Assembly: GCA_015488115.1 (NCBI GenBank)
Contig: WFOK01000013.1
Coordinates: 1-64,000 of the forward strand
Direction: 5' to 3'
DNA: 64,000 bases
DNA from: Mariprofundaceae bacterium
GTDB taxonomy: Bacteria > Pseudomonadota > Zetaproteobacteria > Mariprofundales > Mariprofundaceae
The stretch's first letter is position 1. Each line of letters begins with the position of its first letter. Positions 21,919-26,881 of this stretch are shown piece after piece. Both the position numbers and the translations under genes were made by a program. The notes beneath the pieces are model-generated. The model did not search any database and had not been told where the DNA came from. It worked only from the letters and a program-made list of their open reading frames with translations.

Positions 21919-23223
21919 TCATTGACACCAGGCCTGCTGCTCCGGCGTAAGCTTGGACTTGAGCCCTGCGCAGTAGGCCGATGGGATCGCGGCAATCTGC
22001 TCCTTGCCCATCGCATGCAACACATCCACGGGAATCTGACTGTACCACCATCCATGGTTGATGCTCGCTATTTGAGCCGGGGTCATCGATGACACCCAAG
22101 ATGGTTTCTTCTGCAAGACCGACACCACCGCCGGGCCGGAGATCGCAGCCCGCTGTTCCGGCGTCAGCCAGGCAAGCTTGGATGCCGGCAGTGTGCCCGC
22201 CGCCGGACCAACCCCCTTCGGATCCAGTGCCTGCAATTGGGCCTTTGTCAGTTGCGTTCCATATCCGCTGACAACCTTGCCCACCCAATATGGATGACTG
22301 ATGGAGGAAAGCTGCGATGGTGACATCTGAGACAGCAAATCCGGACGCTTGTCAAGCAGGGTTGCAATCGGCCAGCCCCCCTTGATCGTCGAAAAATACT
22401 GCTTGGGCACCCATGACAACTGGCTCTTGCTCAGAAGCCAGACATTCGGCGCCAGCAATTTCGGGTTTATCGCCAAGGCCCCCAGCAATTGCTGCTTCGA
22501 CAGATCCTGCGCATGTTTGCGCATGAACTCGAACATCCAGTACCCGTGGCTGATTCCGGCAATCTGCTCCGGCGTCAGGTACTTGATGTATTTGGACGGA
22601 ATCGACGGAAATTGCTCTTGCTTCATTGCACGGATCTTTTCAGCCATTTTTCGTTCGGCCAGTTGCTCTGGCGTCAATGCCGCAAGCTGTTCCGCCGAGA
22701 GCCTTGCGAAATCTGCAGCACTCATCATCGCAATCTGCTCGGGTGACAGCTTCGCAATCTGTTCAGGCGTCAACCCCAGAATATCCGCGCCGCTGATTTT
22801 CGTCAGGTCCACACCTCCGCCGCCACCGGCCGCAGCCGAGCCCAGGGGCAAGCCGTAACTCGTCAGCGTGCGTTTCAGAGATGGGTGGCTGTTCGCATAC
22901 AGCGTCAGAGTCTCGCCGTCATTGCTGTAATACCAGTCCGGCTTAGCCGTCCAAGGATCCACAGGCAGGGCTTTCAGGTATCCTGCCTTGACAAGCTCAT
23001 CCAGCTTTCCCGTTCCCGGGCTGTAGTTCCGGTCCAGACCGTACCGATGCAAGGCCTGCACGATGTTCTCTTCCGCAGCCAACAGACGCGCCTTGTTCAC
23101 ATATTCGTGGTAAGCGTTCCATGCAATGCCCGCCAACACGGCCATGATCGCAACCGCAACCATCAGCTCCAGCAGCGTGAAACCATCCTGATGCTCGCCT
23201 GCAGAACCTGGACCCTTTGCCAT
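21919..23223 (-). CDS. GspG-like pseudopilin fused to LTPEQIA-repeat domain
   Basis: A 434-residue protein. The type IV prepilin signature is clear: cleavage after Gly14 (DG|FTLLELMVAV), Phe at +1 and Glu at +5, then a hydrophobic helix. Residues 35-125 resemble a GspG-type pseudopilin head (LDELVKAGYLKALPVDPW). A Gly-rich linker (133-137) leads to a 280-residue C-terminal domain of degenerate [LM][ST]xEQ[IL]A repeats, which ordinary pseudopilins lack. ATG 23223 has a GGAGAAGAG binding site. No other secretion or pilus gene is nearby, so the apparatus that assembles it is unknown. Confidence 0.85.
   Translation of the reverse strand: MAKGPGSAGEHQDGFTLLELMVAVAIMAVLAGIAWNAYHEYVNKARLLAAEENIVQALHRYGLDRNYSPGTGKLDELVKAGYLKALPVDPWTAKPDWYYSNDGETLTLYANSHPSLKRTLTSYGLPLGSAAAGGGGGVDLTKISGADILGLTPEQIAKLSPEQIAMMSAADFARLSAEQLAALTPEQLAERKMAEKIRAMKQEQFPSIPSKYIKYLTPEQIAGISHGYWMFEFMRKHAQDLSKQQLLGALAINPKLLAPNVWLLSKSQLSWVPKQYFSTIKGGWPIATLLDKRPDLLSQMSPSQLSSISHPYWVGKVVSGYGTQLTKAQLQALDPKGVGPAAGTLPASKLAWLTPEQRAAISGPAVVSVLQKKPSWVSSMTPAQIASINHGWWYSQIPVDVLHAMGKEQIAAIPSAYCAGLKSKLTPEQQAWCQ
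21922..22773 (-). repeat. Protein-level LTPEQIA repeat array in the pseudopilin
   Basis: Five octapeptides in tandem at residues 151-190 (LTPEQIAK, LSPEQIAM, MSAADFAR, LSAEQLAA, LTPEQLAE). More widely spaced copies follow at 216, 300, 353, 380, 405 and 425. Three of these run into ISHGYW, ISHPYW and INHGWW. A second recurring motif, IPSKY/VPKQY/IPSAY, sits at 208, 272 and 413. The array fills the whole C-terminal domain and is a protein repeat; the DNA copies have diverged. Confidence 0.85.
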
Positions 23224-23696
23224 GCTCTTCTCCGGCAGGAAGAACCAATGCCCAATTGGCTTCCTGAGCCAATGTTGTTTGCTCCCTAGTCCAGTCCTAG
23301 CATCCGGCATGCCAAGCCCTTGCTATTGCAAGGCCGATGATTTGGCTGGCATCGCAATCCCGCAACCAGACCCTTTCGCAGCAACCCCATCCCGGAAAGA
23401 AATAGATGCGGACACAATGACCTCAAGCTGCGCGTCTGACCCCACAAGTCAGCCGGGTGACATTTTTTCGCAGCCAAGGTGACAAAAAGCGTCAGCCATC
23501 CGGTCGCAACATCATGGGAATGGCCACATACCGAACCGGCATGCATGCAACGGCAAATCAAGGGATTGAGCCTTGCCGGAAAGTGCAGAAATGGTTATAA
23601 GTTCATGCTGTCAATGATGACGCTGTATATGGATGCAACACTGTTCTGGTCCCGTGCAAAATGCCGCCGACCCCGTCGTCTGGCAGGGGTGCTGAG
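23224..23696. other. Intergenic region between pseudopilin and rpoN
   Basis: This 473-base divergent spacer must hold the promoters of both neighbours. The lptA/lptB genes that usually precede rpoN in related bacteria are absent. Apart from the candidate rpoN promoter I see no gene, RNA or strong hairpin; short open frames here have no recognisable content. Confidence 0.55.
23573..23601 (+). promoter_or_regulatory. Candidate sigma70 promoter of rpoN
   Basis: TTGCCG (-35) and TATAAG (-10, five of six) are separated by 17 bases, leaving a leader of about 90 bases before the rpoN ATG. Identified by eye only. Confidence 0.35.
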
Positions 23697-25067
23697 ATGA
23701 AGCTGTCGCTGAGCAACCGTCTTTCCCAGAAGCTTGCCCTGACGCCCCGAATGGCCATGAGCCTGAAGGTGCTGGCGATGAACAGAATCGAGCTGGATCG
23801 GTATCTCGAGGAATGCGTCGAAAGCAATCCCCTGCTTGAAATCGAGGCCCCGGAGCAGGTTGAGGAGAACCAGCCTCAAAGAGCCCTCGTGGAACAGGGT
23901 GGGGATGATCGCTGGGAGCAGATGTATCGCCCGCTGGATGATGCAGAGCCTCTTGACCGATTCGCCCATGTTGCAGAACGCCCCTCCCTGTATGAATCCC
24001 TGATGCGGCAACTCGACCGTCAGCCGATGCCCGAGGACGACCGCCGGATTGCCCACGCCATCGTTGACGCCCTGGACGAGGACGGGCTGTTCCGGACCGA
24101 TATTGCCGCCTTTGCAAAAGAACACCAGACGAATTCAGGGCATGTCGAGCGCGTGCTTATCGAGCATGTTCAGCAGCTTGAGCCTTCGGGCATCGGCGCC
24201 CGCAATCTGACGGAATGTCTGTTACTGCAACTGGATCCTGACGAGCCTGTGGACAGGCTGGCCTCAACCCTGCTCGTGCATTTCCGGGAACGTCTGGACA
24301 TGGATCGCGCCGAGCTGGCGCAGGAGGTGGGGGTTTCCACTCAACAGATCGAGGCTGCATTCGAACGCATGCGCCGGCTGGATCCCTTCCCCGGCCATGA
24401 TGCCGGCGGCCAGGAAAACATTTATATCGAACCGGAAATCGTGTTCCAGCGCAATGAAGAATGCGGATTCGACGTCATCGTGCCGCGCTCGGCGCGCTAC
24501 AGGCTCCGCATTCATGACCGCTGGTCGGAAAGTGAGCTGAGCGATGCGGACAGAGCCTATGTCGAACGCGCACTGCGCGAGGCAAGGTGGTTGATGCAAT
24601 CGCTATCCCAACGACGGGAAACCCTGCTCAAGCTCGGCATCAGCCTGGCCAGGCGGCAGCGCCGCATGCTTGAGTCCGGTTTTCTCGCGATTCAGCCTTT
24701 GACCATGCGGGAGGTCGCCGAGGACATCGGCGTGCATGAATCGACCATTTCCCGGGTTGTGCAGGGGAAATATGCCGGCACGCCCTTTGGCATTATCCCG
24801 CTGAAATCATTCTTCTCAGCCGGACTGCAAACGCAGGATGGGCATGCCATTTCTACAAGCCAGGTTCAGCAGCGCATTCGCGCCCTGATCGAAACCGAGC
24901 CACCTGGCAAACCGATCTCGGATCAGAAAATTGCCGAAAGGCTCCGCATGGAGGGTATCGAGATCGCGCGCCGGACCGTGGCCAAGTACCGGGAACAGAT
25001 GGGGCTTCCGTCGAGCAGCCAGCGACGACGCAGGGTTGCGCGTCCGTCATCCCGGACAAGGAGGTAG
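23697..25067 (+). CDS. rpoN: RNA polymerase sigma-54 factor
   Basis: A 456-residue sigma-54. Region I (residues 1-50) has the Gln/Leu-rich start SLSNRLSQKLALTPRMAMSLKVL; the core-binding domain follows, and the C-terminus carries the HTH (LTMREVAEDIGVHESTISRVVQGKY) and the RpoN box RRTVAKYREQMGLPSSSQRR that reads the -24 element. ATG 23697 begins region I in the usual way; an earlier in-frame start adds only 12 atypical residues. It heads the hpf-ptsN-hprK-rapZ-PTS gene run. Confidence 0.95.
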   Translation: MKLSLSNRLSQKLALTPRMAMSLKVLAMNRIELDRYLEECVESNPLLEIEAPEQVEENQPQRALVEQGGDDRWEQMYRPLDDAEPLDRFAHVAERPSLYESLMRQLDRQPMPEDDRRIAHAIVDALDEDGLFRTDIAAFAKEHQTNSGHVERVLIEHVQQLEPSGIGARNLTECLLLQLDPDEPVDRLASTLLVHFRERLDMDRAELAQEVGVSTQQIEAAFERMRRLDPFPGHDAGGQENIYIEPEIVFQRNEECGFDVIVPRSARYRLRIHDRWSESELSDADRAYVERALREARWLMQSLSQRRETLLKLGISLARRQRRMLESGFLAIQPLTMREVAEDIGVHESTISRVVQGKYAGTPFGIIPLKSFFSAGLQTQDGHAISTSQVQQRIRALIETEPPGKPISDQKIAERLRMEGIEIARRTVAKYREQMGLPSSSQRRRRVARPSSRTRR

Positions 25068-25069
25068 AC

Positions 25070-25210
25070 ATGCTGCTCTCGATCACCGGCCATCATATCA
25101 AACCCATGCAGCAATGCGTGTTCGACCTCCGGCACTTCAGGCCGTCATTTGATCACATGCTTGATGTGCATGTGGCTCTCGGCAGCGAAAAGTGCCGGGA
25201 GGCGAAATGA
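25070..25210 (+). CDS. hpf: Hibernation-promoting factor, N-terminal part (split gene)
   Basis: A 46-residue frame beginning two bases after rpoN. It has the start of the ribosome-binding S30AE domain: LSITGHHIKP at the N-terminus, then SFDHMLDVHVALGSEKCREAK, which corresponds to beta strands 1-2 and helix 1. The frame stops at TGA 25208-25210 in mid-domain, where a complete HPF continues. The rest is in the -1 frame in the next feature. It may be a truncated or coupled half protein, a frameshift mutation, or a sequence error; on its own it would not fold as a normal HPF. Confidence 0.6.
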   Translation: MLLSITGHHIKPMQQCVFDLRHFRPSFDHMLDVHVALGSEKCREAK

Positions 25211-25455
25211 AGGTTCAAACGAGGATTTTGGCCCTGCGCGGGGAGGATGAAGCATTGCATGAAAACGAGCAGCCCGTACCGCTGGCCTGCGCCGAAATGC
25301 TTGCCAAACCGATGAGTGTTGACGAGGCTGTGATGCCATTGGAGCTTTCCTGGCGTGATGAACTGGTGTTTGCCGATCAGGAAAACGATCGGCTGAATAT
25401 CCTTTACTGCAAGGCGGATAACTCCGTCGGCTGTGTGGAGACGGAATCCGTCTGA
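25207..25455 (+). CDS. hpf: Hibernation-promoting factor, C-terminal part with dimerisation domain
   Basis: An 82-residue frame whose ATG overlaps the stop of the preceding half (ATGA) and which has its own strong GGGAGG binding site four bases upstream. Residues 1-32 (RILALRGEDEAL region) resemble the second half of the S30AE domain. From KPMSVDEAVMPLEL to the end it matches the C-terminal dimerisation domain of long-form HPF (consensus KPMSVEEAI.QMEL...NVVYRR.DG). A GTG at 25192 is an alternative start. Long HPF beside rpoN is more typical of alphaproteobacteria; here it is divergent and split. Confidence 0.65.
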   Translation: MKVQTRILALRGEDEALHENEQPVPLACAEMLAKPMSVDEAVMPLELSWRDELVFADQENDRLNILYCKADNSVGCVETESV

Positions 25456-25487: not shown

Positions 25488-25928
25488 ATGGCATTACTGA
25501 CCCCGGATCATGTTATCGTCGATTCGCATGCGCCCACAAAGAAGGCGATGATTGCTGAACTGGCCCAGTCCATTCGATCGATTGATCCCGATCAGGTTCT
25601 CGAGGTGGTCATGGCCCGAGAGCGCTTGGGCAGTACGGGAATCGGGCATGGCGTGGCCATTCCCCATGGCCGCATCCATGATCTTCTGCACCCGATCGTC
25701 GCGGTCGCCCGGCATCGCAAAGGTGTGGATTTCGAGGCCATTGACGGCGAGCCCGTGCACATCGTCGTGTTGTTGCTCGTGCCGGATGATGACAACCGGC
25801 AGCACCTGGAGCTGCTGGCCCACCTGGCACGTTTGCTTCAGCAGCCCTCTTTTCGCGAACAGATCATGCGCGCCACCGATGCCGAAAGCCTGGCGGCCCT
25901 TTTCCCGGAGATGATCCCGGCCTCATGA
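25488..25928 (+). CDS. ptsN: PTS IIA-like nitrogen regulatory protein
   Basis: A 146-residue EIIA-Ntr, the phosphate-accepting regulator of the nitrogen PTS. The phosphorylated His lies in GHGVAIPHGRIHD (about residue 66). The fold pattern (MARERLGSTGIGHG, HIVVLLLVP) is typical. It is preceded by an AGCAGGGAA binding site and overlaps hprK by four bases (ATGA). Confidence 0.94.
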   Translation: MALLTPDHVIVDSHAPTKKAMIAELAQSIRSIDPDQVLEVVMARERLGSTGIGHGVAIPHGRIHDLLHPIVAVARHRKGVDFEAIDGEPVHIVVLLLVPDDDNRQHLELLAHLARLLQQPSFREQIMRATDAESLAALFPEMIPAS

Positions 25929-26881
25929 GCAGCCCAGCCGGCATGTCCATCCGCGCCCTGCTCAAGCAGCAAGGTGCGGCCATGGATCTGCAGTTGCTGG
26001 CCGGCCGCTCGGGCCTCGACAGGATCATCGAGCATCCGCGTATCAACAAGCCCTCCCTGGCTTTCGCGGGCTTTCTTGATGATGTCGATGACTGCCGCCT
26101 GCAGGTTATCGGCAAGACAGAGCTGAAATATCTGGCCACGCGTAGCCCGGAGGACCAGCGGCGCGTGGTGGACGCCCTATTCGATCGCCATCTGGCCGGC
26201 GTGGTCGTGACCCGGGGTCTTGAGCCTCCCGAACTGTTGATACAGGCCGCTGAGCGAAGCGGGACACCGCTTTTGAAAACCTCGCTGGACACACAGACTT
26301 TCATATCTCAGATCATGCTGGTTCTCTCGCGTGCGCTAGCACCGGTCAGCCATCAGCATGGGGTTTACTTGGATGTGTTTGGCCTGGGCGTACTGTTGAT
26401 CGGCCCCAGCGGTATCGGCAAGAGCGAAATCGCGCTGGAACTGATTTCGCGCGGACACCGGTTGGTGGCCGATGACGTGGTGGAGCTGGTGCGCCAGGGG
26501 CCGGACATCATCGTCGGCCACAGCCCGGATGCATTGCGTTATCACATGGAAATCCGGGGGCTTGGCGTGCTCAACATCCGGGACATGTTCGGCGCGGCAG
26601 CCATCACCGATACCAAGCGCCTGCGCCTGGTCATCGATCTTGTTCCCTGGGAACATGCGAAGACAAGGGACCGATTGCCCATGAGTGAGGAGACATTTGA
26701 TATTCTGGGCGTCCTGTTGCCGAGGGTGTCGCTACCCATACGATCGGGGCGATCGCTGGCCATCCTGATCGAGGTCGCGACACGTCATCAGTTGATGAAG
26801 CTGAGGGGCATAGACAGCAACAAGGCCTTCATGGCGGATCTCGAGCGTCGCATCCAGCAGGGAGGATCTGAAAACCCATGA
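25925..26881 (+). CDS. hprK: HPr kinase/phosphorylase
   Basis: A 318-residue HprK that phosphorylates and dephosphorylates HPr on serine. The Walker A-like P-loop GPSGIGKSEIALELI (about 158-172) and the following RGHRLVADDVVE are family hallmarks, as is MEIRGLGVLNIRDMFG. The N-terminal half is the HprK-N domain. In this cluster its target is the HPr encoded two kilobases downstream, which has the matching serine site. Confidence 0.95.
   Translation: MSSPAGMSIRALLKQQGAAMDLQLLAGRSGLDRIIEHPRINKPSLAFAGFLDDVDDCRLQVIGKTELKYLATRSPEDQRRVVDALFDRHLAGVVVTRGLEPPELLIQAAERSGTPLLKTSLDTQTFISQIMLVLSRALAPVSHQHGVYLDVFGLGVLLIGPSGIGKSEIALELISRGHRLVADDVVELVRQGPDIIVGHSPDALRYHMEIRGLGVLNIRDMFGAAAITDTKRLRLVIDLVPWEHAKTRDRLPMSEETFDILGVLLPRVSLPIRSGRSLAILIEVATRHQLMKLRGIDSNKAFMADLERRIQQGGSENP

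Follow-up and report, generated by a model that had tools for sequence, protein, structure and literature searches.

The split hibernation factor gene between rpoN and ptsN is very probably a pseudogene of long hpf, decaying after its displacement by an acquired short HPF. The source genome (G000 below) is a zetaproteobacterial metagenome-assembled genome (MAG) of 1.69 Mb in 72 contigs, 98.65% complete, and ‘the window’ refers to the whole stretch of 64,000 nucleotides that was analysed.

What the two frames retain

The features of the locus are as follows, with positions counted in the window.

23661..25067, + strand: rpoN (sigma-54), intact; upstream, conserved hpf neighbour
25060..25064, + strand: original hpf Shine-Dalgarno site GGAGG, with the start codon ATG at 25070
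25070..25210, + strand: ORF1, 46 aa, TGA at 25208-25210; probable remnant of the long HPF N-terminal part
25197..25210, + strand: probable deletion junction; about 57 S30AE codons (profile 49-105) absent, frame -1, TGA overlapping ATG
25207..25455, + strand: ORF2, ATG at 25207, -1 frame, 82 codons; probable remnant of the linker and C-terminal dimerisation domain
25300..25431, + strand: Ribosom_S30AE_C (PF16321) match within ORF2
25488..25928, + strand: ptsN (EIIA-Ntr), intact; downstream, conserved neighbour
25925..26881, + strand: hprK, intact

The ORF at 23661..25067 is taken by us to be rpoN from its family resemblance and synteny. The sequence-only reading had described a frame of 46 residues running to a TGA, and a second frame at -1 starting from an ATG that overlaps this stop (ATGA) behind GGGAGG (25197-25202), and these coordinates are confirmed. 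A functional long HPF is read in a single frame; here it is interrupted by the TGA at 25208-25210, and the remainder lies in the -1 frame.

Both frames were compared with a class-specific long-HPF profile built from 28 intact relatives. ORF1 matches profile positions 1-48 with 33.5 bits and small deletions in alpha1, and ORF2 matches positions 106-187. Positions 49-105, about 57 residues, are present in neither ORF; they comprise late beta3, beta4 and alpha2, strands and helices being named to match the topology published earlier (PMC6177447). Therefore, joining ORF1 and ORF2 yields no complete HPF. The rest of the S30AE domain does not continue in ORF2, as had been supposed, nor would one extra or missing base at the junction turn the two frames into a complete continuous HPF.

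The long-HPF dimerisation domain ascribed to the second frame is indeed there, as ORF2 matches PF16321 with an E value of 4.7e-11 and 42.7 bits (cut-off 25) over profile positions 13-56 of 57. The complete N-terminal S30AE domain of a functional long HPF (beta1-alpha1-beta2-beta3-beta4-alpha2) is not. PF02482 matched neither ORF1, ORF2 nor both joined, and a six-frame search of the rpoN-ptsN locus found none; ORF1 alone matched no Pfam family, and NCBIfam had no match to the remnants.

Near-invariant residues are affected on both sides of the junction. Along with the 49-105 gap, 17 of 54 near-invariant columns are lost, including the alpha2 basic residues. In the N-part, 13 of the 23 near-invariant columns are kept, 7 changed and 3 missing, and 5 of 14 are changed in the C-part. 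Near-invariant columns outside the gap thus have 12 changes and 3 deletions, compared with 1 and 2 changes in 55 columns in the congeners G001 and G002.

An alignment by eye placed ORF2 MKVQT on beta3 (EISIQT), implying a 4-base frameshift and a separate in-frame loss. It was rejected, as the class profile puts MKVQT on the linker motif (eIKVSHRVLD), with which one out-of-frame deletion suffices. We infer that the loss of about 57 codons was a single event.

The feature resembles long HPF (HPFlong or LhpF; PF02482 plus PF16321) in its rpoN-hpf-ptsN locus, start and Shine-Dalgarno site, and in matching the N-terminal 48 positions, the linker and the C-terminal dimerisation domain. It differs from long HPF in that the S30AE residues of the gap are missing, the frame is broken, parts of alpha1 are lost and near-invariant residues are changed.

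The locus in the class and in the sister species

Among 30 relatives, an S30AE gene lies at the rpoN-ptsN locus in 29, being long and unbroken in 28 and short in one (G037), and the exception is G003. The 28 intact orthologues at the same locus each encode a long HPF of 183-191 aa in a single unbroken frame between rpoN and ptsN. A homologue of rpoN lies beside hpf in 28 of the 29 relatives' loci, as does one of ptsN in 28 of 29. The order rpoN, long hpf, ptsN is the standard arrangement in the class. A long HPF beside rpoN had been called unexpected in a beta/gamma-like genome, but the genome is zetaproteobacterial. GGAGGTA upstream of hpf is found also in G001, G002 and G003. G000 and G003 are the only tested genomes without an intact HPF at this locus.

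Incidentally, G037 belongs to another family of the order, and its rpoN-ptsN interval holds a naturally short hpf of 111 aa (L049 1492-1827). Only about 21 bases between this short hpf and the ptsN match are left, giving no room for a C-terminal domain, and a search for RMF in G037 gave no match.

In the proposed comparison with close relatives, the gene of G003 turned out to be broken differently. G003 is the MAG J030 (Zetaproteobacteria bacterium) and the sister species of G000. J030 originates from Jinata Onsen; in this hot spring, Zetaproteobacteria are found at up to 63 C (PMC6759342). Protein identity between the two species is 86% for rpoN, 92% for ptsN and 92% for hprK. Identity over 25041-25310 is 0.33-0.61, compared with about 0.83 in the flanking genes.

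Indels and a premature stop interrupt the C-domain in G003. The remnant there contains the linker and a stretch resembling profile positions 64-104, which are missing in G000; the match to 64-104 is weak (8.3 bits), with about 2-3 of 1990 shuffles scoring as high. Profile positions 9-63, partly retained in G000, which keeps 1-48, are not recognisable in G003. The differing retained parts suggest that the ancestral gene was complete and decayed independently in the two species. One deletion common to both species, as the MAFFT DNA alignment looked, was dropped because the profile suggests that different parts are kept.

A 26-codon stretch of the C-domain (window 25291-25368) has diverged little between the two species, with pS of 0.18 and pN of 0.10, compared with about 0.5 at synonymous sites of neighbouring genes. 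Its pN/pS is 0.56, whereas windows of the neighbouring genes have a median of 0.09. This pattern is read as late relaxation, and may alternatively come from recombination or local conservation. Altogether, disabling lesions (the internal deletion, the frame change and the 12 changed near-invariant sites) are found with relaxed constraint, although by pairwise dN the C-part on its own has accelerated only modestly.

The unlinked short S30AE protein

A short S30AE protein of 112 aa, intact and unlinked to rpoN, is encoded on a different contig of G000 (G000:C56, L001 1489-1827). Its PF02482 match is complete (70.9 bits) and it has no C-terminal domain, as expected for a short HPF. The nearest solved sequence is chain 9t0z_9, ‘ribosome hibernation promoting factor’, with an E value of 2e-26. 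Among the congeners, only G000 and G003 carry this protein. The two copies share 98% identity, and their dN of 0.008 indicates strong constraint. The gene lies beside a BON-domain gene in a 3.2-kb stretch that is collinear in the two genomes.

Leaving aside other short copies from Zetaproteobacteria, the protein is closest to proteins of Gammaproteobacteria and Nitrospirota, at best 67-68% identical outside the genus, and not to the long HPF of its own class. A tree separates it, with full support, from the short copies in a second zetaproteobacterial genus (g10). The natural reading of these relationships is horizontal acquisition before the split of G000 and G003.

Several observations accompany this protein. 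The dS of the short HPF between G000 and G003 (L001 1489-1827, L066 2626-2958) is 0.29, compared with 0.80-0.92 for rpoN, ptsN and hprK, which strongly biased codon usage or a separate history may explain. A BON-domain gene also adjoins a short S30AE gene (34% identity to that of G000) in records of Methylocaldum and Methyloversatilis (L136, L141, about 6.6-7.4 kb), suggesting that the two genes are a recurrent pair. Members of g10 (L078-L082, L158) have a different short S30AE protein, so the class seems to have acquired such proteins repeatedly. The one g10 genome checked, G012, has a short HPF and an intact long HPF together.

Like the E. coli-type short HPF that works with RMF, the factor retained in G000 is S30AE only, being of the HPF/RaiA type with a complete S30AE domain. 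Unlike in that system, no RMF partner was found: none scored over the cut-off in G000 or 20 relatives (21 genomes), while the E. coli control was positive. The E. coli dimerisation route thus appears unavailable in G000 and its relatives.

Proposed history and other readings

We conceive the following history. The ancestor had an ordinary long HPF of about 188 aa, made up of an S30AE domain, a linker and a C-terminal dimerisation domain, the form still found in nearly all relatives. The common ancestor of G000 and G003 would have gained the unlinked short S30AE protein beside the BON-domain gene by horizontal transfer, with which the long HPF probably became dispensable. The short protein, whose S30AE domain is plainly present, would have taken over hibernation, blocking the decoding site in 70S ribosomes but not dimerising these on its own. 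The old long hpf would have decayed afterwards, probably separately in the two species. In G000, the out-of-frame internal loss of late beta3, beta4 and alpha2 would have produced the TGA/ATG overlap, and the small alpha1 losses and near-invariant-site substitutions could have come before or after this main deletion.

Counting against decay are the frame of ORF2, still open over 82 codons, and the fair conservation of the 26-codon C-domain stretch in the two species. Decay of the C-part may have come late, or this part may retain some role. Also, the loss is seen in one genus and two species, so that only one shared gain underlies its tie to the short HPF. In the literature on HPF pseudogenes or HPF displacement, nothing on point was found.

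The sequence-only reading had offered three options, a two-chain factor, a frameshift or decay, and only the last is supported. In a two-chain hibernation factor, ORF1 and ORF2 would be translated by stop-start coupling at ATGA and would jointly bind and dimerise ribosomes, as the overlap with its GGGAGG site and the good PF16321 domain in ORF2 could suggest. However, neither chain contains beta4 or alpha2, every near-invariant basic residue of alpha2 being lost with them, and S30AE Arg86 and Arg93 contact 16S rRNA and the ribosome backbone in the Thermus HPF structure (PMC6177447). The layout is absent from G003 with its interrupted C-domain ORF. The GGGAGG site had been considered strong, but the window contains GGAGG-N3-8-ATG 26 times, compared with 24 expected by chance, so an SD-like site before the second ATG is uninformative. 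Such a factor is extremely unlikely. A programmed -1 frameshift at the junction is not supported, as it would not result in a complete HPF and there is no slippery heptamer in the ORF1 frame over 25150-25207. Its layout is not conserved either, with a single frame in 28 relatives and different lesions in G003.

A sequencing or assembly error, with one continuous HPF as the true gene, is hardly credible. The junction could in principle be misassembled in a MAG of 72 contigs, but a single-base error cannot restore about 57 codons, nor would it explain the further small alpha1 losses and the near-invariant residues changed on both sides. Moreover, the independently assembled MAG of G003 is also without an intact gene here. 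It is very unlikely that ORF2 alone is retained to supply a free dimerisation peptide, which might work together with the short HPF in trans, or else compete. Its open frame and the stretch of low divergence from G003 would fit such a peptide, but the pN/pS of that stretch is far above the neighbour median, of 14 near-invariant C-domain residues 5 are changed, and the G003 version ends prematurely. That the C-terminal domain survives as a separate small protein pairing in trans with the short HPF, making a two-gene substitute for long HPF, is most improbable.

In other bacteria, 100S dimers need the C-terminal domain of long HPF or RMF (PMC5620043; PMC12977618). By analogy, 100S dimers in G000 and G003 would be absent or made otherwise. 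In a Legionella study, 100S formed without LhpF and RaiA through an unidentified factor, so the absence of 100S here cannot be assumed. If 100S is absent, the pair would provide a natural loss of ribosome dimerisation, comparable with congeners that keep long HPF.

A candidate two-chain hibernation factor is removed, and ordinary gene displacement very probably takes its place. The two sister zetaproteobacteria, at least one of them from a hot spring, have probably lost the ribosome-dimerising long HPF, and carry a conserved short HPF and no detected RMF. Apparently, a short HPF has replaced a ribosome-dimerising long HPF in two lineages.

Elsewhere in the window, a 463-aa ORF lies on the minus strand at 21919-23310. 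In it, a type IV prepilin-like N-methylation motif (PF07963) precedes two stretches of ALTTAQ repeats (PF20080), that is, a pilin-like head joined to a repeat protein.
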